A DNA stretch of 64,000 nt, from positions 20,212,853 through 20,276,852 of the forward strand of contig OZ023213.1 of the NCBI GenBank assembly GCA_963995525.1. Reading direction: 5' to 3'. Within the stretch, counting starts at the first letter, position 1. The number at the start of each line of letters is the position of its first letter. Made by a program: the position numbers and the translations under genes. This document shows positions 1 through 64,000 of the stretch, piece by piece. The stretch is from Escarpia spicata. Lineage: Eukaryota; Annelida; Polychaeta; Sabellida; Siboglinidae. The notes beneath the pieces are model-generated. The model was not told the origin of the DNA. It ran no database searches and saw only the letters and a program-made list of their open reading frames with translations.

Positions 1-406
1 CAAAAGAGGCATGGGAGTTAGCTAAAAAGTGTTTAGAAATTGCGGAAAAGCGAGTGGACGATAGCAAACAGAACTTGAAAGATGCACTGGATAGAAACAA
101 CGAGGCTAAGGATGCTCGAAATGCAGCAAACAATAATTTGCAAGAAACAGAAAAGGTTGTAAAGGAAAGTACCAACAAAATGGAAAGACTACAAAAAAGT
201 TGTTGCTGCGAATGACAAGCGGACAGATGCGAAGAAAGTAATGGACAAATCCAAGAAAGAAGTACGTGTTGCAGCAAATGCACTCCGTAATGCTAAAGCG
301 GATGAGCGGACCGCTGATAAAAAAGTAATAATTACAAATAAAAAATTAGTACAAGAGAAAAACGCGCTCGTAGATGCGTATCTTCAAGATAAACCGTTGC
401 CCAAGA

Positions 407-409
<3 letters not shown>
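1..409 (+). pseudogene. inverted, frameshifted partial copy of the coiled-coil exon
   Basis: This plus-strand stretch is a near-identical inverted copy of 3440-3853, part of exon 2 of the secreted coiled-coil gene. Only a few substitutions are visible. One A-run is two bases shorter (around 190-197), which shifts the frame, so the copy cannot encode the same protein through that point. The similarity stops at 409, inside the codons for a KK-Q-V stretch, where a (TA)n tract begins; the complete gene has no exon boundary there. The left end lies outside the window. It is most likely a recent inverted segmental duplicate that is now a pseudogene. A neighbouring paralogue broken at the TA tract is the alternative. 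Confidence 0.85.

Positions 410-441
<32 letters not shown>
410..441. repeat. (TA)n microsatellite at the duplicate breakpoint
   Basis: About 16 TA units begin directly where the inverted exon copy stops. A similar but longer TA tract lies next to the intact exon at 3896-4118. Confidence 0.95.
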
Positions 442-1161: not shown

Positions 1162-1775
1162 TCACCCCTTACAAAGATACCTTGGCCACGGTTTCCATTC
1201 TGGCCACTCGGGCCAATTTGGGTAACTTGGTGGCCACTCCGGCCAATTTGGCAAATCTGGTGGCAAGTCTCGTGGCAAATCTGGTGGCCACACCGGTAAC
1301 CAATTTGGTGGCCACTTTGGCAGCCACTTTGGTGGCCACTTTGGTAGCCAATCTGGTGGCCATTGTGGTGGCCACACTTCTGGCCACTTTGGTGGCCACA
1401 CCTTTGGCCACTTTGGCGGACGTATTGGACGCCATCTCGGTGGCCAATTTGATTTCCTGGGTTTCTGCGGAGTTCTTTTCGCCTTCTTCCATGCCTCGTA
1501 CGCTAGCTTCCATGCTTCCATTGGTCCCTTCCCTTCCTTTCTTGCTTGATCCCACGCCTCTCTCGCTCGTCGCCATGCTTCCTTTTCTTCAGTCCACGCC
1601 TCTTTTAATCGCTTCCACTTCTCTGTTGCTTGGTCCCTTTTCTGCTTTTCGACTTCCGCAGCCTTCGCCAACTTTTCCAGTGCATCACATATCGAATCGT
1701 TCACGTTCCGCGTGCAAGGTGCCTGGGTATGTGGTGTTACGTGTGGGACGAAATAGCAACCACCACATTGTTCAC
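1162..1775 (-). CDS. exon 3 of secreted coiled-coil / Trp-Pro repeat protein
   Basis: Last predicted coding exon, residues 605-808 of the joined protein. The acceptor is a pyrimidine-rich ttattttCAG just above 1775, and the codon phase (2 nt completing a codon) matches the exon 2 donor. It opens with four cysteines (C608, C611, C625, C634). Next is a basic helical stretch with Trp at 658, 665, 672, 679, 693 and 700, that is, one Trp per heptad in KEAW-like repeats with one position replaced by Gly at 686. The last 95 residues contain 19 Trp; from 727 to 767 eleven Trp are spaced exactly four apart (W-[PL]-P/E/K-x). The frame ends in TGA at 1164-1162. A strong donor, GGG|GTGAGT, overlaps this stop (intron would start at 1165), so a further exon outside or below is possible. 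I know no family with this architecture. Confidence 0.7.
1182..1450. repeat. 12-bp coding tandem repeat (W-P-P-x tetrapeptides)
   Basis: Degenerate 12-bp units built on ggtggccactttggc-like DNA (plus-strand view) encode the Trp-every-fourth-residue tail on the minus strand. All frames stay fairly open because the unit length is a multiple of three, which explains overlapping frames on the other strand. Confidence 0.85.
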
Positions 1776-2260
1776 CTGAAAATAATTGTGTCACACTGTT
1801 GCATCATACATAAAGGAATATGCTTGATATCTTTCTCGCAATTAATAAATAACTGATGTTAAACTCATTTGTGTTTAGTCGTAGTAGTAGTAATAATAAC
1901 AATATGATATTAATTATTGTACTCGTATCATTAGCAATTTATCTCTTTTAAAGCAAGTTAAGAAAACCTTTGTTAATGGTATGCTAATTTGTTCTACTGT
2001 TTCAGTGGGTTGCTTTTGTATATTTGTTGCCAATATATATTGCGTGGTTCACAACTAACTGTCCAGAATTATTTGATTTAGCTTCCTGGTCGTTGGCCCA
2101 CATCATGTACTGCTGAAGACATAACATATGATCTCTTGCAAGTATTGCATCCATATTTCTAGTCTTTCTTTAATCACCCACCATATATATTAAAATAGTA
2201 GAGAGAGACGCAGTAATATATTGACGTAACCTTTTGTATTATTCACATTAATTGACGTAC
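1776..2260 (-). other. intron 2 of the secreted coiled-coil gene
   Basis: 485-bp AT-rich GT-AG intron: donor TAA|GTACGT at 2260, acceptor TTTTCAG ending at 1776. It is phase 1, like intron 1. No repeat or open frame of note was seen. Confidence 0.7.
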
Positions 2261-3880
2261 TTATGGAAGTTGTTTCCGGTCCTTGTTCGGTGGTTGTGAT
2301 TCCATCGGATGTTGTTTCCAGTACTATTTTGGTGGTTCTGTCTCCGTTGGATGTTGTTTCAGGTACTTGTTCGGTGGTTCTGACTCCATCGGGTGTTGTT
2401 TCCGGTACTGTTTCAGTGGTTCTGACTCCATCGGATGTTGTTTCCAGTACTTGTTCGGTGGTTCTGACTCCTTCGGATGTTGTTTCCGGTACTGTTTCGG
2501 TGGTTCCGACTCCATCGGATGTTGTTTCCGGTACTTGTTCGGTGGTTCTGACTCCATCGGGTGTTGTTTCCGGTACTGTTTCGGTGGTTCTGACTCCATC
2601 GGGTGTTGTTTCCGGTACTGTTTCGGTGGTTCTGACTCCATCGGATGTTGTTTCCAGTACTTGTTCGGTGGTTCTGACTCCTTCGGATGTTGTTTCCGGT
2701 ACTGTTTCGGTGGTTCCGACTCCATCGGATGTTGTTTCCGGTACTTGTTCGGTAGTTCTGACTCCATCGGGTGTTGTTTCCGGTACTGTTTCGGTGGTTC
2801 TGACTCCATCGGATGTTGTTTCCGGTACTGTTTCGGTGGTTCCGACTCCATTGGATGTTGTTTCCGGTACTTGTTCGGTGGTTCTGACTCCTTCGGATGT
2901 TGTTTCCGGTACTGGTTCGGTGGTTATGACTCCATCGGATGTTGTTTCCGGTACTGGTTCAATGGTTATGATTCCATCTGATGTTGTTTCCGGAAATGGA
3001 ACGGTTGATTTGGTTCCATATAGTGTTGTTTCGGATGTTGATCCAATGGTATTCTTTTTGCAGTTCAAGCTTTTATCCAAGTTATCCAAGGCTTTCCTAT
3101 ATTCGGCTGTGACTTCTTCAAGTACTCTTTTCCATACCTCAAGTTCATTTTTTGCAATCTGCAAATCCAAGTTCGTCTCGATCAATTTCATATCTGCATT
3201 CTCAAATTCTGTACGTGCCTGTTCACAATTCTTCTGTTTTTGTTCGTGCATCTCTTTGGCAATTCCATGAACATTCAAGGCTTGTTTGTGCGCTTTTGCA
3301 GTTTCTTGCAAGATTTTTCCGCATTCTTCAAGTGCAGTTTTGCTTCGTCCGACTCTTTTTGACGCACTATTCAGATTTTTCACTGCTTTACTGTAGGTGC
3401 TCTTTGCCAATGCAACTGCACGTTGCGCGTCAACAACCTGTTTCTTGGGCAACGGTTTATCTTGAAGATACGCATCTACGAGCGCGTTTTTCTCTTGTAC
3501 TAATTTTTTATTTGCAATTATTACTTTTTTATCAGCGGTCCGCTCATCCGCTTTAGCATTACGGAGTGCATTTGCCGCAACACGTACTTCTTTCTTGGAT
3601 TTTTCCATTACTTTCTTCGCATCTGTCCGCTTGTCATTCGCAGCAACAACTTTTTTTTGTAGTCTTTCCATTTTGTTGGTACTTTCCTTTACAACCTTTT
3701 CTGTTTCTTGCAAATTATTGTTTGCTGCATTTCGAGCATTCTTAGCCTCGTTGTTTCTATCCAGTGCATCTTTCAAGTTCTGTTTGCTATCGTCCACTCG
3801 CTTTTCCGCAATTTCTAAACACTTTTTAGCTAACTCCCATGCCTCTTTTATCAAGTTGCAAAATAATTTATCCCGGAGGC
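2261..3880 (-). CDS. exon 2 of secreted coiled-coil protein: coiled coil plus 14-aa Thr-rich repeats
   Basis: Large 1620-bp exon (exactly 540 codons, entering and leaving in phase 1), residues 65-605 of the joined protein. The acceptor is tcgttgtcttgtttCAG above 3880. Upstream sequence in the same frame is only translated (TA)n, so the exon does not extend into it. Residues about 66-338 are rich in Lys, Ala, Glu and Leu with heptad character, predicted as a long alpha-helical coiled coil with scattered Cys. Residues 348-601 are 18 tandem units of 14 residues (consensus ETTSDGVRTTETVP) plus a partial unit. These are Thr/Ser-rich and could be O-glycosylated like a mucin. The unit order shows a higher-order period of about four units, a sign of recent unequal exchange. 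The role is unknown; a secreted structural, adhesive or matrix protein is inferred from composition only. Confidence 0.8.
2277..3032 (-). repeat. 42-bp coding minisatellite, 18 units
   Basis: Eighteen 42-bp units encode the 14-residue Thr-rich repeats. Units differ mainly at S/P, D/E/N and the T/Q before VP or VL. Similar runs of four units recur (about 168 bp), consistent with expansion in blocks. Copy number is probably polymorphic. Confidence 0.95.
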
Positions 3881-3895
3881 CTGAAACAAGACAAC

Positions 3896-4026
3896 GATAT
3901 ATATATATATATATATATATATACGTGTATATATATATATATATATATGTGTAAATATATATGGGTGTTAGCATACATATTATATTATAAATATATATAT
4001 ATATATGTATATATATAAAATATATA

Positions 4027-4064
<38 letters not shown>

Positions 4065-4118
4065 TATATATTATATATATAATATTATATGATATATATA
4101 TATATAATATATATATAA
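3896..4118. repeat. (TA)n-rich tract
   Basis: Imperfect TA dinucleotide repeat of about 220 bp with short interruptions. It starts a few bases from the exon 2 splice acceptor. Confidence 0.95.
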
Positions 4119-4119
4119 T

Positions 4120-4376
4120 ACACAAACATCACACATTCACGCACACATCCCTCCCCTCACGCACACTGTCTCTCAAACACAGACACACACACACTCACAC
4201 ACACACACACACTCACACACACATACACACACACACACACACACACTCACACACACTCACACACACACACACGCACACACATGCACACACACACACACAC
4301 ACGCACACACACACACACGCACACACATGCACACACCAACAACCAAACACACGCACGCACGCACAAACACACACAC
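4120..4376. repeat. (CA)n-rich tract
   Basis: CA-rich microsatellite with CACG and CACT interruptions, directly next to the TA tract. His/Thr and Cys/Val open frames here are artefacts of the repeat. Confidence 0.95.
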
Positions 4377-5412
4377 AATGAGATCAACTTTAACATCCAT
4401 TTGATCCGCGTAAAGCGATTATGTCGTGATGCCATACTCGCATCGCGAAAACCTGTTTCGATGTAATCGAGTTACTGGATTTTCCGGCTGAAATTTAATT
4501 CCAACGCAACATTTGGAATGAAATTAAAACAGACACACGAAGTTCGGTGTGAGCGCGTGTACGGAATGGAAACATGCATACTCACAAGCACGCACTGGCG
4601 CACACACGCACGCACACACGCACATACGCACGCACGCAGGCATGCACGCTACCGTACACGACCATTCTAGCATATGCTACGAAATGCATAAACATACATT
4701 GTAACTAAAAATGGTGTTCTACATTTCCCTTCAAAACATTTGGCGTATGCACAGTTTCGTTCAGAGGGGCAAACATGGTGACAAACGGCTATGCTTTCTT
4801 GTCCTTGTTCTACTTCTCGATTGAAAACAAAGGTAACTATGAACATTCTATATTGTGTTCTAAATGCAATTGCGTGTTACAGTATTGTTTTAATTTAATT
4901 CTACAATTTTCGTTTCGACAAAATTGACAAGCAAGAGGCTCACCGTCATTTGTCGAACAACATGCAAACATGGCCTGTACCCCGTTGATAACTAGGGGAA
5001 GGCAGTGTTAGTTGAGCCATTTTTTAAATTTTTTATATATACGACAAAATTATATTCCTAAGTGAGAATTGTGTTTACTCATATAAACTATGATTATTTG
5101 CAGATCTTTTGCGGAAACTAAAATGTGTCTAACGTGAATAAATAACTAGATATAGCTAATTCAAAGAGTGCTGGTCAAGTGGTTCAACTAGCCCTATGTG
5201 TGGGGTAATTTGAGCCACAGTTGGTAAAGGCTTTAGTTTACGTAGGCCTACTAAAATGTCATAACTGGGCCAACGCAATTAAGTTTATACCCAAAGGGTA
5301 CATAAACACTGCTCACTTACAAGTCAAAACGCATAACTACTAAATACACACACGTAATTAAGATACCATATTACAGTGCCATTGCAACCACAGTGTAACC
5401 ACCACACCCTAC

Positions 5413-5605
5413 CTGGAGGTAGAATTGGCCGATTTGCGATGTCTCTTTTGCGTCGTTCCAAAGCATTGTGCGTCAAATTGTCTGGCTCCTCATTGCCAAT
5501 CTGGTTGACGTTGTCGAGCGGTTGGAGGGCGACTCTGGCGGTGATGTCGTCGATGTAGCAGAGCAACATTAGCAGTCCCGCGACACAGATGGCCGGACGG
5601 GACAT
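5413..5605 (-). CDS. exon 1 of secreted coiled-coil protein: signal peptide and furin-like site
   Basis: The first coding exon supplies residues 1-64 and one base of codon 65. The ATG at 5605-5603 has A at -3. Residues 5-18 form a hydrophobic core followed by a polar stretch, a typical secretory signal with cleavage likely around residues 23-26. N43-L-T is a possible N-glycosylation site. R51-R-K-R54 followed by Asp is a furin-type proprotein site, so the mature chain may start at about 55. The exon ends CCAG|GTAGGG in phase 1 and joins exon 2 in frame with a Gly codon formed across the junction. Reading past the donor gives unrelated sequence, which supports splicing here. The role is unknown; targeting to the secretory pathway is inferred from the signal peptide. 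Confidence 0.72.
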
Positions 5606-16204: not shown

Positions 16205-16450
16205 ACTGTTGTGGGCTGAAGAAGAAGGCATACCACTTTGGTCAGTGAGAGTAGACGGCTGCGTACTGTCGTAAGAAGTAAAGGAAGGCTACCCAGGCTT
16301 GTGAGGGGTGAAAGGCTGCCCACTTTCCTCAGAAGACGTGGAAGTCTGCCCATTCATGTCGGAGGAGGTAGAAGTCTGCCCGGTCTGGTTGAAGAAGGTA
16401 GAAGGCTGCCCTCTCTGGTCGGAGGAGGTTGAAGACAGCCCGAAGAGCAG
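16205..16450 (+). repeat. 30-bp minisatellite, about 8 units
   Basis: Eight degenerate 30-bp units built on gaagtctgcccNNNNNgtcggaggaggta. The last four remain open on the plus strand and would encode a decapeptide (E-V-E-x-C-P-x-x-S-E type). An in-frame stop precedes them and no splice context is evident. It may be non-coding or the remains of a coding repeat. Confidence 0.8.
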
Positions 16451-22014: not shown

Positions 22015-22345
22015 TATGTTCCATGCTGATGAACACAAAACTACACCCGCATTCATGTCCCATGTTGACGACGATGCATTGATGAACATGAAACTCAACC
22101 TGCAGTGATGTTCCATATTGACAACAATACGTTGATGAACATGAAACTTCACCCGCAGTAATGTTCCATGTTGATGATGATGCATTGATAAACACCAAAC
22201 TTATCCCGCAGTAACGTTCTATGTTGATGACGATGCACTGATGAATATAAAGCAATCTGCAGTAATGTTCCATATCGACAACGATGCACTGATGAACATA
22301 AAACAACATGCAGTAATGTTCCATGTTGACCATAATGCATTAACT
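22015..22345. repeat. 53-bp minisatellite, about 6 units
   Basis: Units start at about 22056, 22109, 22162, 22215, 22266 and 22317 (spacing 53, 53, 53, 51, 51 bp). They share tgttccatgttgacNacgatgcaNtgatgaacat plus a variable tail. The array lies within 700 bp downstream of the stop codon of the minus-strand transporter gene, so it may be transcribed in its 3' UTR. It has no spacer diversity and is not CRISPR-like. Confidence 0.85.
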
Positions 22346-32599: not shown

Positions 32600-33651
32600 C
32601 ATACATGCCAACTCTTACGGATCACCCGTAAGTCTTACGGATTTTCTAAGATTTGACGGTCTTACGGGCGTAGGACAAATTCCTTACGGGTAACGCGTTT
32701 TCATGTACTTAGTTGTTTTATTATTATTTGGTTATACGACTCGTTATCATCAAACTAAATTATCCTTCCTGAATCGAGAAACGACCATTTGTCCAGATCA
32801 TTTTAGTGGAGTTCAGTGCGCTAATCGAAGTCTCGCGAGATGCGAAGAATATATCCCAGATTGCAGTGCAGATACCTTTTTAGCATGCGCGGCAAACCAT
32901 CTAGCGAAAATTCGTACCGCATGTAAATTTCGAAGAAGATGGAGATTCCGGCGAGGAAGCGAAAACAGAAGCAGTATGCCGGGACGTATCAGTCCAGTTG
33001 GAATGGTTTGTTTAAAGGCATCATTAGTGAAAGTAAGTTAGGGAGCAACTACGCATGGTGTACTGTCTGTTGTCGAGACATTAAAGTGGCCGCCTCCGGC
33101 AGGTACGATGTGCGCGAGCACGTTAAATCGAAGACGCACGAACGACAATTGCAGTGTTCGCAAATAACCAGCTTTTTCAAGCCCAACTCTACGGACTCCA
33201 CCGACTCGACCACAAAAGCGGCAGACCATTTTACCGACCTGGCCCGCCAAATGTTCCCAGATAGTGAGATCGCTAAGCGATTCAAGTGTAAGAGGACGAA
33301 AACAACCCAGATCGTGAAACGGTGCTTGGCGCCGGCAGCTACGACGCCCGTCATGGACCGCTGTCGAGGCGGACCTTTCTCTTAACTTTGACAGCTGCTG
33401 TCATCAGTTAAAGGTGTCGCCCGCGATGCTCCGCGACGCAAAGCATGCGTGCTATGAGGATAAGCTCGAGCACCTGTCTGACAAGTGAAGGTCAATAAAG
33501 AGAGTTGTGTGAACAGGTGTTGTTGTTAATGCCGGTATATTAGATATCAGCTGTATTGTCCTGTCGCTACACTTGCAGCTTGCTTATGGCTGTCTTATGG
33601 ATTTTTGCCCATAGTCTTACAGGTGTGGATCACTGAAGGTTGGCATGTATG
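32600..33651 (+). mobile_element. hAT-like non-autonomous element inserted in a LINE
   Basis: 1052 bp with perfect 13-bp inverted ends CATACATGCCAAC (32600-32612, and complement ending at 33651). A perfect 8-bp target duplication TCTATGTC flanks it at 32592-32599 and 33652-33659. The 8-bp duplication and the ends are typical of hAT elements. It carries only the N-terminal zinc-finger part of a transposase-like protein and so appears internally deleted. Confidence 0.93.
32939..33385 (+). CDS. transposase N-terminal zinc-finger fragment within the hAT-like element
   Basis: Open frame of 148 codons starting MEIPARKRKQKQY. It contains a BED/TTF-like zinc finger with C-x2-C (WCTVCCRDI) followed by SGRYDVREHVKSKTHE (H-x5-H-like), then a QITSFF motif. 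That order (finger, then SLTSFF-like motif) is usual at the N-terminus of hAT-derived transposases and ZMYM/ZBED-like proteins. The catalytic RNase-H-like region is absent. It may be a truncated transposase gene or a non-functional remnant; coding today is unproven. Confidence 0.65.
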   Translation: MEIPARKRKQKQYAGTYQSSWNGLFKGIISESKLGSNYAWCTVCCRDIKVAASGRYDVREHVKSKTHERQLQCSQITSFFKPNSTDSTDSTTKAADHFTDLARQMFPDSEIAKRFKCKRTKTTQIVKRCLAPAATTPVMDRCRGGPFS

Positions 33652-35618
33652 TCTATGTCCTTCTTGCGATATGGCCTCCATGCTTGTATACAATATTCTA
33701 AATGAGGCCTCACTATTGTTTTGTACAGCGGTACTATGAATTCTTTTTTCTTATACGCTATATTTCGCCTAATTAATCCAAGGATTTGATTTCCCTTTGA
33801 CGCTGCAATTCCGCACTGCTCTGAAACCTTCATATCAGCACTAATGGTTAACCCTAAGTCCTTTTCTTTTACTGTAGTACTTAGAACAGTACCCCCCATT
33901 TTATATTTTACCTCTTCATTCCCATGACCTGTGTGGAGGCATTTACATTTCCCAAAATTGAACAGCATTTGCCACTTTTCAGACCATTTGATCAACCTAT
34001 CAAGATCATCTTGTAAATGCTGTCTGTCTCCATCACTTTTAATCCTTCTAAACACTTTTGTATCATCCGCAAATTTTAACACCTTGCTTGTTATATCATC
34101 GTCCAAATCGTTGATATCTATTAAGAATAATATAGGTCCTAGTACTGATCCCTGTGGTACCCCACTCAATACCGATTTCCAGTTTGAAGCCTCCCCATCA
34201 ACTACTACACGTTGTCTTCTGTCATTCAGCCATTTTTCTATCCAGTTTATTATACCATTTCCTATGCCATGGGCCTTTAGCTTAAGGAGTAATCTTTGAT
34301 GTGGTACTTTGTCGAAAGCTTTTTGAAAATCTAAATAGATGATATCTACTGGTGATCCCTCATCTACCCACGTAGTGATGTCTTCCAAAAAACATAACAT
34401 ATTTGTTAAGCATGACCTCGCTTTTAAAAACCCATGTTGAGATGGGTTTATCAAGTTATGTTTAACAAGAAAATCCACCATGTGATCTTTAATTAGTCTT
34501 TCTAATAATTTGCAAATCACTGATGTTAAACTCACTGGTCTATAGTTCTCTGACTTGTTTCTCGAACCTTTTTTAAATAACGGTATAATGTTTGCCTCTT
34601 TCCATTCTAAAGGAACCACTCCCTCTTCTAATGACAAATTTAAAACTGTTGCAAGCGGTGCGCTGGTTTGTTCTACAATTTCCAATAGTAGTTTGGGCGG
34701 AATCCCGTCCACTCCAGGTGATTTATTATCCTTCATAGCCCTTATTTTCTTAGCTACCATTTCCGAGGTTACAACTAACTGTCCTAAATAGTCTGAATCT
34801 GCCCCCTTGAACTTAGCCTCTGGTACTGGCAGTGAACTAATATCTTCCCTGGTAAACACTGAACTAAAATACTCATTCAGGTCTTCTGCCATTAAGAATC
34901 CCTCTGATATTGTATTTCCAGCACTATCTTCTAGAGGACCGACCTTATCCTGAACTTTCTGTTTGCTTCGAATATACGCATAAAAACTCTTACTGTCATG
35001 TTTTATATTACTAGCTAATTTTTTTTCATAGCTTCTCTTTGAATTTCTAATTTCAGCTGTAGCTTGATTAAGTGCTTCTTTATAAATGTTGTAGTCTTCA
35101 TCATTTCCAGTACATCTATATGACTTCCACATCATTTGTTTATACTTAATTTTTCTAATGGCTTCTTTCGATAAGTGTTTCTTTTTAGACCGTTTCCCTT
35201 GTTTTTTGAAAGGTACAAATTTATCGACTATGCACTTAATTTCACTAATTAAGATATTCCAGCATTCAGTTGCTGTCTTATTCTTCAGTGTGTTATTCCA
35301 GTCTATCTTTGCTAAATATTTCCTCATGTCCTTATACATTCCTTTGTGGAAATTTCTCCTATACTGCTTTTTACTATTCCTTTCTGATTTTACTTTGATG
35401 GTAAAATGTATCTGGTTGTGATCACTACTCCCCAGTGGCTCACATATCTTGACATTGTCAACTAATTCTTTCTGTGAGGACAAAACTAAGTCTAACACAT
35501 TCTCTCCCCTGGTTGGTTCTAGCACATGTTGAGAAAGGAAACTATCTTGTACTAAAACTAAAAACTTGTGGTCCTCACTCCCCATACTCTGTAGAGGGGA
35601 GTGAGGACCACAAGTTTG
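33652..35618 (-). pseudogene. CR1/Jockey-like LINE ORF2 (endonuclease end and reverse transcriptase)
   Basis: A long open minus-strand frame. It begins inside the APE-type endonuclease domain (GENVLDLVLS...GSSDHNQIHF, the SDH end of the domain). It continues through a linker into the reverse transcriptase: SPGVDGIPPKLL, NIIPLFKKGSR, NYRPVSLTS, QHGFLKARSC, YLDFQKAFDKVPH, SGVPQGSVLGP and the catalytic KFADDTKVF. The 5' end is truncated at about 35618. The 3' part is displaced by the hAT-like insertion. The sequence retains a near-intact frame, so it was a fairly recent arrival. Confidence 0.92.
35562..35617. repeat. 22-bp perfect hairpin at the LINE 5' truncation point
   Basis: Arms 35562-35583 and 35596-35617 (AAACTTGTGGTCCTCACTCC and complement) surround a 12-bp loop. 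The arm is LINE sequence duplicated in inverse orientation, as expected from 5' inversion (twin priming) or template switching during insertion. Confidence 0.85.
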
Positions 35619-36411
35619 GCAATGCATACACCTTATCATATACGCATGACTAAGTTTGCCGTTATTTAATTAGTTATATCAAAAATGTAACAAAACAAAC
35701 TTTGATTTAAATATCAACTAAAAAGATTATGCTTTAGGGTTGTCCTATTTATCTAGGTAGGATCGGGTTACCAGAAACAGTTTGGTGGTTAATCGCATTG
35801 AAACCAGTGGCCCGACGGGCCAGTAAAATATGAAAACTGGTAGCCCGACAGCCTCAAAAAAGGAGCCGGGCTAGCGGGCCAGTGTTAATGTCAAGGCCTG
35901 ATATGCCAAAGAGAAAACAATGTAAAGATATATATATGTATCAATGTTATGATAGATTTATTGTGCAGATTTTATCTACAAAAGCAGCAAAAACAATGTA
36001 ACATGAGGTTGTCAGCATTTTCTCTCCAGTATACCCTTTGACCCCAGAAACAATCGCCTCTGTACCCCTCAGAACATTCAGCATCCATTCAGTGATTATG
36101 ACAGCCACTTTAAAGAGGTAAACAGATGCATGTTTGCAGTAGGACAACTTATTTGATGACCACTCAGTGTGGCAAAGTTATTGCACTTGACCTTAGTTTC
36201 TGCTGACCTCTGCTTTCTTCATGACCTCTTACACATAATAATACTAACATGTTAGTCATTATGTAATTACAGGTAGTGTGAAACTGCTAGTTCTACTTTA
36301 ATTGTTCTACTTATAATTTAAGTTATATGTGCTACATTACATATATCTACACACTTGTGATAGTAAACGTTTGTGTGAAACTGTACGACAAATGCTGGTA
36401 TCAAAACTTAC

Positions 36412-36614
36412 CTCTCGCGGGACAAAAGAACCGGCAAGGGTGACTCCTGACCAGAAGAAAATACCAACGGCCATGATGATTTTTCTGTTATAGCGGTCAC
36501 CAAGGTAACCAAATATAGGCGATAGAAGCATATAGCTGACGATGAACGACGTCTGTAAGAGACCAGTGTCTGCATTGCTGATGTTGTAGAATGACTGCAC
36601 CTCACTCAGAACTC
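36412..36614 (-). CDS. Spns1-like: Spinster-type transporter, exon 2
   Basis: Residues 77-144 (isoform b). It starts by completing a Gly codon and encodes V-L-S-E-V-QSFYNISNADTGLLQTSFI, TM2, then the MFS motif A GYLGDRYNRK and TM3 with SGVTLAGSFVPRE. Acceptor tggttttggttgCAG; donor CGAGAG|GTAAGT, phase 0. Both alternative first exons can splice here in frame. Confidence 0.95.
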
Positions 36615-38207
36615 CTGCAACCAAAACCAGACAGTCTGTGAGCAGGCTGTTATAATTATGTAACAAAATGTCATTTAAGTCACGTTATCAAGGGCCACAA
36701 TATGATGGCCAAAGATGCCATGTACAAAGAAGACAAGTTGTGGTGGAGATTAAGGGTAATCGCTGGTATGTAAGTTAGTGCATAAAGGTGGGGGGTGAGT
36801 TGGTCATTGCTATATTTAGCAGGAAAAATTAATCTCACACTGAGAATGTTCAAACAACTTAGTAGTGCACATTGTAAAGGGTCTGAAAGGTGGCTATACT
36901 TCCTTTCTATTCAGTAATGTTCTTGTTTATCCATTCTAACTTTATAATCTGATAGAGCTGGTTGGCAGCTGTGATATTTTCTGGACAAGTGCTTTACAGA
37001 AATATATCCTGGAAGTTTTTATTTACGTTGACAGCTCTGAGCATTGACATTGTCAGTCGTCTTGTAAAGATCATGTTTTAATATATGATTAGCGATTAAT
37101 ACCGGGATAGTCATGATATTAGTTACATGTTTAGTTTGCTTACTCATGCTGAGTTAGCTGCAGGTGTTGCAACCAGTGTTTTGACTGTTTTCATAGGTGT
37201 ATCCATACACAGAATTACAGCCATACCTCCCAAAGGTTATTCCTGATTCTTAATGCTTTTCTAACTCTCAAATGAACATTATTCTAACTTCTTGTAGTTT
37301 ATTTAATAAAGCCCTCATTGTGGATTGAACTAAGAATTTTTTTTTAAATGTTTATTTCTGATAGGTGCTTATAAGTTTAAGACTTTGTATATCACATTCA
37401 CAATATGCATACAACATTCCAAATTATGTCAACCTTATTACTACACAACTGCAGCAACTAGCATCGCATGACTACACCGACTTTTTTATGCTAAAACACT
37501 ACCATAATAAGTAAAGTTTTTTATATTAGAAATATATCAACTACTACCTCATAATAATATATAGTTGTTTAAAATGTTGTATAAAATGGTACAAAATCTG
37601 GGCTGTTACAAATTTCAAGCACTGTACATGTAGTAACAGGTCAAGGTACTGTGCTTACTAGTTCTGGTGACTGATGTTATGCAAGATTTAGGATTGGATT
37701 ATAGCTGGGATCCCTCCAGGTACCAAGGGGCACTAGTCACTCATCAACATTCAACAGGGAGATGTGTGTTCTGACTAATAGTAATTGATCAAAATATGCA
37801 TCACTGAAACAATTTGTTTTTGTGATGCTACATGTATGTCATGCATACCAGTAACATTTCCAAGATGGGTTACAACATATTGTAAACTTATAACTGTTTC
37901 AGTATCCAACATCACAGACTGACAATTAAGTGATGTTTCAGTTCACATATAAAACCATCGACTTGGCCATTAATGAGAATCTTTCAACCTCGTAATCATC
38001 ATACATCCATGGGGACAATTACACAATATTTAACTTACTCTTTTCTGTATTTATTATTTTTATTAATTCTTGTTCTGATTACACACATTGCAAGGAGGCA
38101 CTATTTTAGTTTACTTGCAACCAATATTGGTGAATTATTTAAACAGTCGTTATGTCTAATTATTCCACACATACATCATTTGTGTAATATGACAGTTATG
38201 CCATAGG
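36615..38207. other. intron 1 (3' part), nothing recognised
   Basis: AT-rich intronic sequence without repeats or frames that I can name. Confidence 0.35.
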
Positions 38208-49300: not shown

Positions 49301-50614
49301 TGTTATATCCTTTTACCACATAATCGTATTGCCTATGGATTACGCATCACGGTTTTAGCGATTTATTTATTTTTTTAATTATCATTTATTTAACTAGCTA
49401 GTTTCAACATTCGTGTATTAATCTATTTTTGCGCCTGTGAATGGACTTTTGTCTAGATTTATGGTGCTCTACAAGTTGACTCATTATTATTATTTCAGTG
49501 TTGATAAATTATGCACACTGCAGCTTCTAATGTCATTTTAAATTAAAAGGTATGACAGATTGAATTCGGTTGCTTTTGTTCTACTGTAACTGTAACTCAC
49601 ATTGATGAAAGACCATTTAAATGTACAATTCCTTATTTTGTAACTCACATCGATTAAAGACCATTTATTTTAAATGTCCAATGTGTTAGAGCTTGTTTTA
49701 CTCCTATTAAAGTAAACAGTGGGTTGTATGGTTTAACTAGAAGATATAGTTTATCTTGATATTTCATGTTCAATTAATAAAACAAGTGTATTTTTCTTTA
49801 TCACATTAAGATACATAATATAATTATAACAGTACCTCCCAGTTTAATTGAAATGTGTCCATTTCATATTAACCCCAGCAGTGCAAGGTATAACATATGC
49901 CTTTTCAGACTCCCGGAATTGTTATAGACTGATGAAAATAAAATATTACAATAGATCTGCCTACTATATTTTTTTCGCAATAAAATGTTTTTCCTTACTA
50001 CCTACCTACCTACCCTATTTTTAAAATCAATTTGATAGGAAACACAACTATATTTTATTTAGGCTGTAACAAATCTACTGTCCCACCTCTAGACTAAAAT
50101 AGATGGTTCCGATTCAGAACTGTAGATTGCTTTTAAAACATTAATTGCTGGTTGTTGGCTATTTTGTTTGTTATCAGGTTTTTGGTAGAAATAAAATAAT
50201 ACATAATACAAATGAGCATATAAATATAATATATGCTGTTATGCATGGTCAGACACAGATATATTTATGATGATAGACATAACTGTCATAACTAGTCTTT
50301 CTTGTGAGACGTTTCCACATTTAACTTTCCATTTGGAACAGTACTTGTGTATTGTTTTGGATCATGGATGACAATATCAATGTTGTTAAATCTAAACCAT
50401 GTTTTTAAAACAGCTTTATTTATTTGATTTATAATAGAAAACAGAGTATGGTCTAGCCCTAGCCTAGGCTAGGGCCAGCCTCCAGGGCCAGGGCACAGAC
50501 TGCAGTACAGACGACACTGATTACGTGTACACACAATGTCACTGACTACACTCTCTACAGCTATTTCAGCCCATGATAACAAGGAAGTGAAAATGAAAGG
50601 AGTTATCTACACAC
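46356..50614. other. intron 1 of isoform 1b (5' part), no gene recognised
   Basis: About 4 kb of AT-rich sequence. No element with clear ends, no exon consistent with the gene's phases, and no RNA gene seen. Confidence 0.35.
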
Positions 50615-50843
50615 CTGCTAACGTGTATCGGTCTATGTAGTTGAGCAGGTTTGCTAGCAGTAACACGCCCAGTGTCATATGTGCTCGCCATCTTACAACG
50701 TTCCTAGCATCATTCCGCATGTTCAGTTCACGGACGGTTTCTTTAACCATTTCATCGACCAGTTCATTTTCGGCTCTCAGCTTCACGGAGACGTCTTTAG
50801 TGTCTTCGTCTGTCAGTTGTGGTACGATGTTCATACGGGTCAT
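50615..50843 (-). CDS. Spns1-like: Spinster-type transporter, alternative first exon 1b
   Basis: Encodes residues 1-77: an acidic N-terminal cytosolic tail, then TM1 ending LLANLLNYIDRYTLAG. The donor is TAGCAG|GTGTGT in phase 1. The ATG at 50843-50841 (ACG before ATG, A at -3) is preferred; the open frame continues upstream without an ATG. A second ATG lies three codons later. The predicted protein with this exon has 537 residues. The N-tail is unlike that of exon 1a although the TM1 ends match, so the two exons are probably used from separate promoters. Confidence 0.88.
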
Positions 50844-51027
50844 CGTTGCGGTTTTCAAACGCTTGCCGATGCGGAACGACTGCGCGTACGCCGGGTGATA
50901 GGAGACTGCAGAAACGTTTCGCTCGACTTGTGTGGGCGACAATGCGTTCTCGGCCTGTCGTGAAATACTCAACCGGTAAACTCACAGACAATGTCCTCAT
51001 TCAACGTAGCACTGGCCAGTGTCGGTG

Positions 51028-59157: not shown

Positions 59158-59287
59158 ACTCTCGATAAGCCTAAGGCTTCCTAGTCCACATACTATCCGG
59201 AGCATGTAGCTTTGGATGGCAACCCTGTTACATACCTTGTTAAATAAATAAAACATTACCCCAGACCCAGGGCCTGGCTAGGCTTAC

Positions 59288-59627
59288 CTGCAACGGTATA
59301 TCTATCGATGTAGTTGAGCAAGTTGATTGTTGTCAGAATGACCACAGCGGCGATGTTAATGTAACGTCCACATCTTCCCCCAGACCCCGACAAAATGCTC
59401 GGGTCGACGCTAATAACCTGTACAACACTTTCTACATTGTCGACATCATCTTCAGCACCATCGCCAAGACTTCTTTCTTCTGAATCGTCCAGTAGAAGCG
59501 GAACTTTGTCGCCGCTCGGCGGAAAATTTTCTAAGTTCTCACTGTCAGCGACATGTGCTACTTCCGCCATTTGAACACTGTTGTCTAGCGGTGATTTTAG
59601 TGGTCTACCTCGCGCAATGACATTCAT
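59288..59627 (-). CDS. Spns1-like: Spinster-type transporter, alternative first exon 1a
   Basis: Encodes 113 residues plus one base: an acidic N-tail with a possible dileucine-type signal (DKVPLLLDD), then TM1 ending TTINLLNYIDRYTVAG, closer to vertebrate SPNS1 (INLLNYMDRFTVAG) than exon 1b. Donor GTTGCAG|GTAAGC, phase 1, compatible with exon 2 at 36614. The first ATG is at 59627. A second ATG at 59570 (ATGGCGG context) may be the real start. With this exon the protein is 574 residues (555 from the second ATG). A separate tandem paralogue is less likely because no other downstream exons are present. Confidence 0.85.
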
Positions 59628-59744
59628 ACGTTTGCCGGAGTAAACTAGCTAGTTCGCTTTAATGAGTGTGCATTCCGCTGCACTTCCTGAAACAAAACAA
59701 ATCTCTGCCATTTTTACTGACAGCCTCGTTGTGAACTCGCCGGT

Positions 59745-59947: not shown

Positions 59948-61059
59948 ACAGCAAGAGAATGCTGGAATATCTTGAAGAATGAAATAGTGTGCATCGTAGA
60001 TAAATTTGTTCCCTTCAAAAAACAAGGGAAACGGACCAGAAAGAAATACTTATCGAAAGAAGCCATTAGAAAAATTAAGTATAAACAAATGATGTGGAAG
60101 TCATATAGACGTACTGGAAATGACGAAGACTACAACATTTAAAGAAAGAAGCACTAAACCAATCTACAGCTGAAATTCAAAGAGAAGCTATATGAACATA
60201 AATTAGCTTGTAATATAAAACATGACAGCAAGAGTTTTTATGCGTATGTTCGAAGCAAACAGAAAGTTCAAGATAAGGTCGGTCCTCTAGAAGATAGTGC
60301 TAGAAATATAATATCACAAGGATTCTTAATGGCATTTTAGTTGAATGAGTATTTTAGTTCAGTGTTTACCAGAGAAGACACTAGTTCACTTCCAGTACCA
60401 GAGGCTAAGTTCAAGGGGGCAGAATCAGACTATTTTAGACAGTTAATTGTAACCCCAGAAATGGTAGCTAAGAAAATTAAGGCTATGAAGGATAATAAAT
60501 CACCTGGAGTGGATGGTATTCCACCCAAACTACTATTGTTCGACTGCCCTGACGTTACGCACTGCACAAATCCCAGTTTAGCTGTGAACAGCTGTAAAGG
60601 GATTACTACATCAAACAAACATCAAACATCAAACATTGGAAATTGTAGAACAAATTAGCATACCGCTTGCAACAGTTTTCAACTTGTCATTAGAGGAGGG
60701 AGTGGTTCCTTTAGAATGGAAAGAAGCAAACATTATACCGTTATTTAAAAAAGGTTCGAGAAACAAGTCAAATAATTACAGACCAGTTAGTTTAACATCG
60801 GTGATTTATAAATTATTAGAAAGACTAATTAAAGATCACATGGTGGATTTTCTTGTTAAACATAACTTAATAAATCCATCTCAACATGGGTTTCTAAAAG
60901 CGAGGTCATGCTTTACAAATATGTTATGTTTTTGGAAGACATCACTAAGTGGGTAGATGAGGGATCACCAGTAGATATCATCTACTTCGATTTTCAAAAA
61001 GCTTTCGACAAAGTGCCACATCAAAGATTACTGCTTAAACTAAAGGCCCATGGCATAGC
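59948..61059 (+). pseudogene. decayed second copy of the CR1/Jockey-like LINE
   Basis: Colinear with the minus-strand LINE at 33652-35618 in inverse orientation. It has frame shifts, a stop before the N-E-Y-F-SSVF segment (about 60340), and a 100-bp insertion. Recognisable blocks are NKSPGVDGIPPKLL, NIIPLFKKGSR, NYRPVSLTS, QHGFLKARSC and FQKAFDKVPH. The similarity ends abruptly at 61059, where the LTR element begins. Confidence 0.9.
60538..60637. mobile_element. 100-bp insertion in the decayed LINE
   Basis: Compared with the other LINE copy, 100 extra bases interrupt the PKLLL-EIVEQ coding sequence. They end in a (CATCAAA)n-like tail, as in small retroposons. Flanking duplication is only ATT. 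Confidence 0.7.
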
Positions 61060-61233: not shown

Positions 61234-61384
61234 TTTTAACTACTGAAGTGGATAGATACTCGTATAGCCAAATAAACGGCACGACGAATGCTTACTTTCC
61301 GTACGCAGTAATTAACATTGAACATTGAACATTGAACATTGCCGGCATTTGCATAGACGATTGAGCTACACGTCAAACGCGACA

Positions 61385-63160
61385 ATGGCTCAGTCACAGA
61401 GAGCTCCAAAACAGTGGTCTCTTTCAAAACACGAAACACTGACGTCATATGAGAGCTGGCGCCAAAACCTCCAATATACTCTATCATTGGACGCGAATTT
61501 CGCACCATTCCTACTCGACCAGGCAACATGGGGAAAGAAAACTAACACTTCTCCACTCAGAGGCTTACTTGACGATATCGAAGACACACCAGGCTTGGTT
61601 AGGCGGACGGCACAACAAAAAGTCGCGCACTTAGAATTAATGCTTGGGCAGATTGCCAACTTCTGTCCGATCATATCGCGAAATACCATCGTCAAAAACT
61701 CGACATCCGTCAAATCCATATGGCAGGCAATCAGACTTCACTTCGGGTTTCAGACAAGCGGCGCTCACTTCATAGATTTCGCCGACATAAAACTTGAATC
61801 AGACGAAAACCACGAGGACCTATTTCAACGCCTCATGGCGTTCGTTGATGATAGTCTGCTGACAGTGGGTGGCGGTATATCACATCACGACGAGTTTCTG
61901 ACCGTAGATGAGGACTTATCACCGTCGCTAGAGAACATGGTTGTATTGAGCTGGCTTAGACTTATCCATCAGGAGCTACCTAGACTCGTAAAACAGCGCT
62001 ACGGAACCGAACTGCGGAGCCGCACACTAGCCAGTCTTAAACCAGAGATCTCTCAAGCCCTGGGGTCCCTACTGGACGAGATCCATTCTATGTCAGAGAC
62101 AAAAATCCTGAGACAGTCAACCTACTACCAACCACGCACACGCTCTGGGCCCGCTCGCCCACAAAGCTACCAACGAACCCAACGAGCAAAACAATGCCCA
62201 CTCTGTAAGCAGGCTGGTAGACCGATAGTAGACCACTATCTAAGCGCTTGCAAGTATTTGCCCGAGCAAGACAGGCTGTTCATGACTAAGGCACGCAACG
62301 TGACAGGACTAAACTGCGAAGATAGCGGAGACGATGAACCACCAGTGAATGACGACTACGTCAATGACGTACAAAACGTGTCGGCGACTTGTTGCGTAAA
62401 TACGAAACAGTCTCCATTCTTCAAGGCGTTCCATCGTCACCACCCAATACGTCTTACCCTCGACACTGGGGCCGAAACCAACATGATTAGAGAGACGGTG
62501 GCCAGGTCAATTGGTGCAAAAATCACCAAAAGCTCCCAGCTCGCAAGACAAGCTGATGGTGTAACCCCACTCAATGTAGTCGGAGAAACAAGGCTCGTGT
62601 TATCGCGGGATAATCTTGACCTACACCTCGATGCCCTTGTCGTTAAAGACTTGGATGTCGATGTACTTGCGGGAACACCATTCATGACAACCAATGACAT
62701 ATCCGTTCGTCCCGCCAAAAATCAGATCAGATTTGACGAAACTGTGATACACTACGGGATGGAGAACGTCAACCGTTCCCAATATCACACGATTCGCAGA
62801 GCGCAGGCCTACGTGTTGCGTGCGCCACCCGCGTCCACTACTGTTTGGCCAGGCGACTACATAGAACTGTCTATTCCATCAGCACTCGACGATCTTGTAG
62901 TGGCGATCGAACCTCGTAACGATCATAAGTCAACATTGAACTACCAAGATTGGCCCCAACCTGCCATTGTCGAGGCAGTCGGGGACAAAATCCGTTTACT
63001 AAACACGTGTACACATCCCTTGAAAATAGGACGCAACGAGCACTTTTGCCAAGTGCGTGGTACCACAGCATGTGACACCAACTACGTGGAAGACATCGTA
63101 GTCAAAAACACAAGCACACACACGCAGCAGACGTGCAATTTTCAGACACTATCGAACTAG
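61385..63160 (+). CDS. Ty3/Gypsy-type retrotransposon gag-protease ORF
   Basis: 591 codons from the ATG at 61385 (an in-frame upstream stretch lacks ATG). The N-terminal 250 residues are capsid-like and helical. C271-x2-C-x9-H284-x4-C289 is a zinc-knuckle variant with wider spacing than the CCHC of retroviruses. D360-T-G-A is the active site of the aspartic protease, in the context [12 protein letters not shown], and the fold's second half ([10 protein letters not shown]) follows. The frame ends TAG at 63158. The polymerase continues in the -1 frame with an overlap of about 70 bp, so frameshifting or a mutation links them. The intact length suggests a young copy. Confidence 0.88.
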
Positions 63161-64000
63161 ACAGTGGCAACCTCTTGTCTGACGACTTGCGCAACCAGTT
63201 CCGCAATCTGCATCAACAATTTGACACCGTGTTCAACTCGAAAATCGTAGGATACAACGGGCATGCGGGCCCATTCACAGCAACTGTAAACATGGGACCA
63301 GTCCAACCCCCGCAGCGAAAGGGGAGGTGTCCGCAATACGCTCGCGACAAACTCGTCGAACTCCAGGAACAGTTTGATGATTTGGAGGCGGCCGGTGTAT
63401 TCCGTCGTCCAGAAGATATCGGGGTGGTGGTCGAATACCTTAACCCGTCATTTCTCGTACGCAAAGCTAATGGAGGATCACGACTCGTCACTGCCTTCAC
63501 GGAAGTAGGACGTTACAGCAAGCCGCAGCCTTCTCTCATGCCAGACGTGGATTCGACACTAAGATCCATAGCTTGCTGGAAGTACATCGTTGTATCAGAC
63601 TTGACGAATGCATTCTATCAGATCCCTCTATCGAAGGACTCACTTAAATACTGCGGAGTTGCGACACCCTTTCGTGGAGTTCTCGTGTACACACGATGTG
63701 CCATGGGCATGCCCGGCTCGGAGACGGCATTGGAAGAACTCATGTGCCGAGTCTTTGGTGATCTGTTACAAGAGGGCGTCGTCGCCAAGTTGGCTGACGA
63801 TTTGTACTGCGGGGGCAACTCGCCACAAGAGCTACTAGACAACTGGAGTCGTGTCCTTGATGCCCTTGCTCGATGCGATTTACGACTTTCAGCAAAGAAG
63901 ACCAGGGTTTGCCCCAAATCAACGACCATCCTAGGCTGGGTGTGGTCAGAAGGTACACTACATGCCAGTCCTCACCGCATCGCTACTCTGGCATCGTGCA
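63091..64000 (+). CDS. Ty3/Gypsy-type reverse transcriptase (partial, runs off window)
   Basis: Open to the window end in the -1 frame relative to gag-protease. RT motifs in order: [14 protein letters not shown], then [16 protein letters not shown] (domain with catalytic Asp), [11 protein letters not shown], and [10 protein letters not shown] with the catalytic LADD in place of Yx[16 protein letters not shown] follows. These are standard for Ty3/Gypsy polymerases. RNase H and integrase would lie beyond 64000. No stop is seen in the visible part. The exact start is not defined, since it is probably made as a fusion with gag-protease. Confidence 0.88.

Follow-up and report, generated by a model that had tools for sequence, protein, structure and literature searches.

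The window (the whole stretch of 64,000 nucleotides analysed here, positions 20,212,853 to 20,276,852 of contig OZ023213.1) carries at 1162..5605 on its minus strand a three-exon gene for one protein, predicted to be secreted, and this gene model is well supported. The product is best read as a protein, probably O-glycosylated, that would work like a coiled-coil silk joined to a tryptophan module resembling that of the byssal protein Pvfp-1, while being a member of neither family, and on balance we slightly favour a role for it as a secreted fibrous protein that lends structure or cohesion to an extracellular secretion (mucus, tube, cuticle or glue) by the mechanism set out below. Exon 1 (5413..5605, ATG at 5605–5603) supplies residues 1–64 and the first base of codon 65, exon 2 (2261..3880, 1620 nt) is symmetric in phase 1, and exon 3 (1162..1775) ends with the stop codon at 1164–1162. 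Intron 1 (3881..5412, 1532 nt), which carries TA and CA microsatellites, and intron 2 (1776..2260, 485 nt) are both GT-AG introns in phase 1, with donors CAG/GTAGGG and ATAA/GTACGT respectively and acceptors TTGTTTCAG/G and TTATTTTCAG/G (the slash marks the junction). Splicing gives an open frame of 808 residues followed by a stop, just as the preliminary description of this stretch had proposed from three exons and two phase-1 introns (about 808 residues), and the order of modules listed there is supported by the translated spliced exons, which encode a start resembling a signal peptide, an RRKR site, a coiled-coil region that divides into two long coils, a run of 18 Thr-rich 14-mers, a cluster of four Cys, a helix with Trp in its heptads and a Trp/Pro tail. 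The open frame of exon 2 amounts to 626 aa if the repeat array and some flanking intron are counted in, and to about 280 codons for the non-repetitive coil part by itself; the longest stop-free frame in 60 random 64-kb Markov sequences of local composition averaged 164 aa and never exceeded 209 aa.

The helical parts of the protein were examined by heptad tables, periodicity and structure prediction, and in each respect the coiled-coil character proposed in the preliminary description was supported. Coiled coil 1 (3465..3875, residues 67–203) has Leu, Val or Met at 13 of 19 a positions and Ala at 12 of 20 d positions, and coiled coil 2 (3066..3437, residues 213–336), which follows a PLP break, has Leu or Val at a (11/18) and Ala at d (10/18). 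A third helix, encoded by exon 3 (1471..1680, residues 637–706), has Trp at 6 of 10 a positions, Ala (5/10) or Leu (2/10) at d and Ala at g (6/10), with a GKGP break at 686–689; in all three the a/d register is our own assignment from the heptad tables. Hydrophobicity recurs with a period of 3.5 residues in segments 67–208, 213–336 and 634–706: at the exact coiled-coil angle none of 500 shuffles matched the observed power in any of the three, and over the range 85–115 degrees the observed power was reached by 0, 1 and 0 of 500 shuffles, taking the segments in chain order. AlphaFold models made from single sequences gave two helices for the exon 2 query (2–139 and 146–277; predicted local distance difference test score, pLDDT, 69–88 by block) and two for the exon 3 query (22–79 and 84–99; block pLDDT 83–94 over residues 31–100). 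Taken together the heptad patterns and the models support the prediction that these segments form coiled coils. BLASTP gave no support for the idea that the coils of exons 2 and 3 share an ancestor (best E 0.059). Between coiled coil 2 and the third helix lie the Thr-rich array (2277..3032, residues 348–599), which at the DNA level is a 42-bp repeat and comprises 18 complete 14-residue units, the first of them degenerate, and a linker (1687..1767, residues 608–634) with Cys at 608, 611, 625 and 634; both counts are those claimed earlier. Thr and Ser together make up 99 of the 260 residues at 345–604.

At the C-terminal end of the protein a coil with a Trp core is followed by a tail of Trp/Pro tetrads, an unusual combination. 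All six Trp residues that had been placed in heptads (658, 665, 672, 679, 693 and 700) are present in the spliced translation. The tail (1165..1446, residues 715–808) consists largely of WPPx-like tetrads, and the earlier count of 19 Trp, eleven of them in perfect four-residue spacing (residues 727–767), stands, while its length is 94 residues and not the 95 given. Four Trp pairs at spacing 7 in residues 634–713 were matched by 1 of 20 000 shuffles and eleven Trp pairs at spacing 4 in the tail by none of 20 000, both spacings and both segments having been selected after the sequence was inspected. The DNA that encodes the tail is tandemly repeated in imperfect 12-bp units, so the regularity of the tail is by itself no evidence of selection, and mechanical repeat expansion accounts for much of it. 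Two details are nevertheless signs of constraint. Five heptads of the Trp helix contain the triplet EAW, written in varying synonymous codons (GAG/GAA, GCG/GCA), and among the eleven Trp tetrads of the tail the Trp codon is invariant, with deviant bases at 0 of 33 positions as compared with 24 of 99 elsewhere in the tetrads (Fisher p 0.0004). The tetrads at 771, 775 and 779 read Leu (TTG) in place of Trp. The last part of the tail (1186..1245) contains four WxxW motifs, at 782, 792, 795 and 798. Since WxxW is described as the recognition motif for C-mannosylation in the relevant part of PMC8433626, these four are candidate C-mannosylation sites.

At the other end of the protein the first 23 residues (5537..5605) resemble a signal peptide, cleavage after A23 being a guess. 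The most hydrophobic 13-mer of the whole protein is at residue 6 (mean Kyte–Doolittle value 2.7), and the hydropathy scan gave no further candidate for a membrane span, every 19-mer past residue 40 scoring 0.47 or less. The RRKR motif (5444..5455, residues 51–54) lies shortly before intron 1 and is of furin type. From these motifs we infer that the protein is secreted and processed at its N-terminus: the signal peptide would export it and a furin-type protease would cut at RRKR, removing residues 24–54. The two coils, each about 19–20 nm long and with heptad a occupied mostly by large residues and d mostly by Ala, would then make up a rod, which a single chain could build as a hairpin bent at the PLP break or separate chains by pairing with each other. 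The Thr-rich spacer would be an extended, hydrated segment bearing O-glycans. Cross-links between chains could come from the Cys cluster, and their oligomerisation from the third helix, with its Trp at a and its Ala at d and g. Finally the Trp/Pro tail would serve as an aromatic cohesive end, making aromatic, cation–pi or sugar contacts with its neighbours, and its four WxxW motifs might be mannosylated.

Within its own assembly (1,060,511,957 bases in 1097 contigs, the window lying on a contig of 62.6 Mb) exon 3 matched one place, namely itself (150 of 4974 candidates scored). Exon 2 gave eight matches (119 of 236 candidates scored), which are itself, five in its own array and two pieces of an inverted partial copy. 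This copy (1..410, plus strand, about 0.4 kb) corresponds to the first half of exon 2 with four substitutions and a 2-base indel, and its frame is broken; it ends at a TA repeat and adjoins a run of exactly 5000 N, and it may be a true partial inversion or have arisen artificially during assembly. The surrounding 269 kb contain runs of 7302, 5000, 5000 and 2500 N (19.8 kb in total), including the one beside the inverted copy. No tandem paralogues were found within 100 kb on either side, outside the N runs; exon 1 alone gave three extra short matches in these flanks (E 2.2, 2.2 and 6.1). The gene is thus single-copy as far as the search reached, which could miss distant paralogues.

The earlier statement that no family with this order of modules is known agrees with all searches made. 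In a collection of 5.8 billion proteins exon 3 gave 69 candidates and residues 1–345 gave 7962, none with E ≤ 0.01. As a control a neighbouring retrotransposon frame gave 615 relatives in the same collection at E ≤ 0.001, and among the control matches listed (120 of 615) were named records of Pinctada, Mytilus and Paramuricea, so animal sequences are present in it; spliced animal genes may nevertheless be poorly represented. Nothing passed the cut-off or reached significance in Pfam, NCBIfam or the PDB, where the best sequence matches had E values of 0.04 (exon 3) and 0.39 (part of exon 2). Flagellin_N (16.9 and 18.3 bits) and DUF745 (11.4 and 13.1 bits) fell below their curated Pfam cut-offs (26.6 and 33.3 bits respectively), and these two, together with SH3BP5, SMC and PgrA, were rejected as family assignments and taken to reflect coiled-coil composition. 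A Foldseek search with the model of exon 3 returned 17 matches (E ≤ 10), none of them at E ≤ 0.001, and against prokaryote genomes and viral contigs exon 3 gave 30 and 2 pattern matches, none of which was confirmed. Pfam gave no TSR domain around the WxxW motifs at E ≤ 1, and the literature search yielded no paper that we recognised as an account of this protein. Lineage-restricted secreted repeat proteins are common, which limits the surprise.

In the absence of a family the protein can be likened to known systems by its described features. Pvfp-1, from the byssus of the mussel Perna viridis, carries O-glycans on Thr and mannose on Trp according to passages of PMC4275877 and a table in PMC8433626. 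The counterparts here are the Thr-rich array and the Trp/Pro repeat, whose four WxxW are, like the array, candidate motifs for such modification. The Trp repeats of Pvfp-1, which contain Pro, are reportedly decapeptides and that protein is said to have no long coiled coils, whereas our tail is built of tetrads and follows long coils; moreover the host is by its mitogenome order an annelid and not a mussel, and the protein-collection searches returned nothing at E ≤ 0.01. Bee silk, in the account given in part of PMC12284834, has Ala-rich coiled-coil cores flanked by other parts, and Ala at g is associated there with higher oligomers. Long coils with Ala at 12/20, 10/18 and 5/10 of the d positions resemble the coiled-coil silks of bees and hornets as far as that account describes them. 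Bee silk is made of four different chains, whereas one gene was found here, in the candidates scored and in 200 kb of flanks outside the N runs, and bee silk is not known to have heptads with Trp, an array rich in Thr or a Trp tail. The Thr-rich 14-mers with their 42-bp DNA repeat and high Thr and Ser content are like mucin-type Pro/Thr/Ser tandem repeats, but the protein differs from a gel-forming mucin in having no VWD, C8, TIL or cystine-knot domain in Pfam at E ≤ 1. For the third helix the nearest comparison is the designed tryptophan-zipper coiled coil (PDB 1T8Z), named in a section of PMC4619341. Both have Trp at heptad core positions. The designed protein is said to be pentameric and to carry Trp at a as well as at d, whereas here Trp occupies one core position and the other is mostly Ala or Leu. 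If the proposed role is right, this would be a natural sequence with Trp both in a coiled-coil core and in a regular polymer rich in Pro, within a single secreted chain. Discussion of natural wet adhesives usually centres on Tyr and 3,4-dihydroxyphenylalanine (DOPA), and a Trp-based, perhaps mannosylated adhesive would offer a different chemistry that is open to direct test. It is an unlikely extension of this that the protein holds a new kind of cohesive module, in which a polymer of Trp/Pro tetrads with C-mannose at its WxxW end is joined to a coiled coil with a Trp-ladder core, as an aromatic, DOPA-free chemistry for glue or silk that arose within one annelid lineage. The case also illustrates how an orphan protein can be put together from a coil plus a spacer and a tail that both began as minisatellites.

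The overall interpretation offered earlier, an extracellular structural or adhesive polymer, is plausible and partly supported, and several observations weigh against it and against our version of it. The cohesive or adhesive role is putative, no feature described here being specific to adhesion. Several core heptad positions hold polar residues, and AlphaFold on single sequences gave no confident fold of the tail (block pLDDT about 37–52) or of the array (28–55). Between array copies the proportion of nonsynonymous differences (pN 0.176) exceeds that of synonymous differences (pS 0.108; of 19 anchors, 17 entered the comparison, which omitted the first as degenerate and the last as incomplete). 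No purifying selection is visible on the array, as in a homogenising minisatellite, which rules it out as evidence of such selection. For the tail tetrads the ratio is weakly below 1 (pN 0.273, pS 0.338), and frame +1 gives much the same values (0.272, 0.349). The contrast between the Trp codon and the remainder of the tetrad also becomes weaker (2/39 as against 27/117, p 0.008) when the two complete Leu tetrads are added, the third being incomplete and left out. Lastly, exon 3 has further basic sites that might be cleaved, KQKR (648), KWKR (657) and KAKR (702–705), and a cut at the last of these could detach the Trp/Pro tail and so undo the tail-contact step of the mechanism.

Four other explanations were considered. 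That the protein is a polysaccharide-binding component of a matrix, whose rows of tail Trp pack against chitin or some other glycan and thereby hold the rod in cuticle, chaetae or tube wall, the tail recognising sugar and not itself, is unlikely but the best of them: aromatics evenly spaced along a Pro-rich chain (19 Trp over 94 residues) would suit it, as would the secretion-like start and the lack of a second membrane-span candidate, while Pfam contains no carbohydrate-binding family for it at E ≤ 1 and the tail has no confident fold. We consider it improbable that the protein serves in defence, with a positive Trp/Pro-rich tail that acts on microbial membranes in the manner of Trp/Pro-rich antimicrobial peptides and is cut from, or carried by, the coil and mucin-like part. 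Residues 707–808 do contain 16 Lys and Arg to 8 Asp and Glu along with the 19 Trp, and KAKR with the RK pair at 711–712 lies between the Trp helix and the tail, making proteolytic release possible; but KQKR (648) and KWKR (657) lie inside the helix, so KAKR may be mere composition, and a chain of 808 residues that includes a long rod and a mucin-like spacer is unlike short antimicrobial precursors. A fast-evolving reproductive coat or seminal protein would account for the orphan status and the repeat arrays, in keeping with the failure to find a relative and with pN above pS between array copies, but nothing in the sequence points to gametes and many structural secretions are known to evolve equally fast, and we regard this as very improbable. 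Least probable of all is a decaying or non-functional locus whose frame stays open because the repeats contain no stop, for although tandem repeats account for much of the protein, exon 3 is open in other frames too, the nearby inverted copy is frame-broken and no purifying selection is seen between array copies, the roughly 280 non-repetitive coil codons are open with one heptad register kept through each coil, the consensus splice sites agree in phase, and EAW is kept despite synonymous codon variation.

The phylum of the host was taken from the mitogenome in the same assembly (contig C1097, 15,939 bp). A Pfam scan of its twelve plus-strand frames (code 5) gave matches for 11 of 12, that for ND2 being only to a family common to other ND subunits; the frame between COX3 and CYTB was without a match and was taken as ND6. 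The large subunit (LSU) rRNA lies on the plus strand, and ATP8 and the small rRNA were not located in this plus-strand scan. The circular order is COX1, COX2, COX3, (ND6), CYTB, ATP6, ND5, ND4L, ND4, LSU, ND1, ND3, ND2. In the comparison made in part of PMC2639372 the annelid order is marked by nad6/cob following cox3, by atp6 lying between cob and nad5, by an exchange of nad5 with nad4L/nad4 and by a nad3 that separates nad1 from nad2, and is contrasted with the mollusc and brachiopod orders compared there. All four features hold here, provided that the frame without a match is ND6. A mollusc origin was rejected on this order, which also speaks against mantle and foot among the tissues named earlier for expression. 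Annelid mitochondrial genes are described as lying on one strand in passages of PMC4505326 and PMC5487361, and exceptions are named in a passage of PMC7682095. A TA-rich simple repeat of about 1 kb between ATP6 and ND5 (L034:2881-4131) is probably the control region. In Clitellata, Maldanidae and Terebellidae the control region is reported at this position (PMC2639372, in part), a weak hint that the host belongs on that side of the annelids.

Rfam gave no match anywhere in the window, and several other elements were noted. A reverse transcriptase frame (Pfam RVT_1) lies at 33633–35669 on the minus strand, and the translation of a short frame at 60588–60953 (plus strand) repeats part of this frame some 25 kb away. 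Frames resembling a long terminal repeat (LTR) retrotransposon occupy 61322–63999 (plus strand); the first of them, with an aspartyl-protease match, has 615 relatives, the three best being 70, 90 and 75% identical. Minisatellites with 30-bp and about 53-bp units, assigned to no gene, are located at 16312–16441 and 22027–22341 respectively. Three possible transporter exons lie on the minus strand, at 36340–36684 (MFS_1 match), 50610–50981 and 59259–59648. The latter two have no Pfam match at E ≤ 0.001 and share the motif NYIDRYT, which we take to be that of spinster-type transporters.

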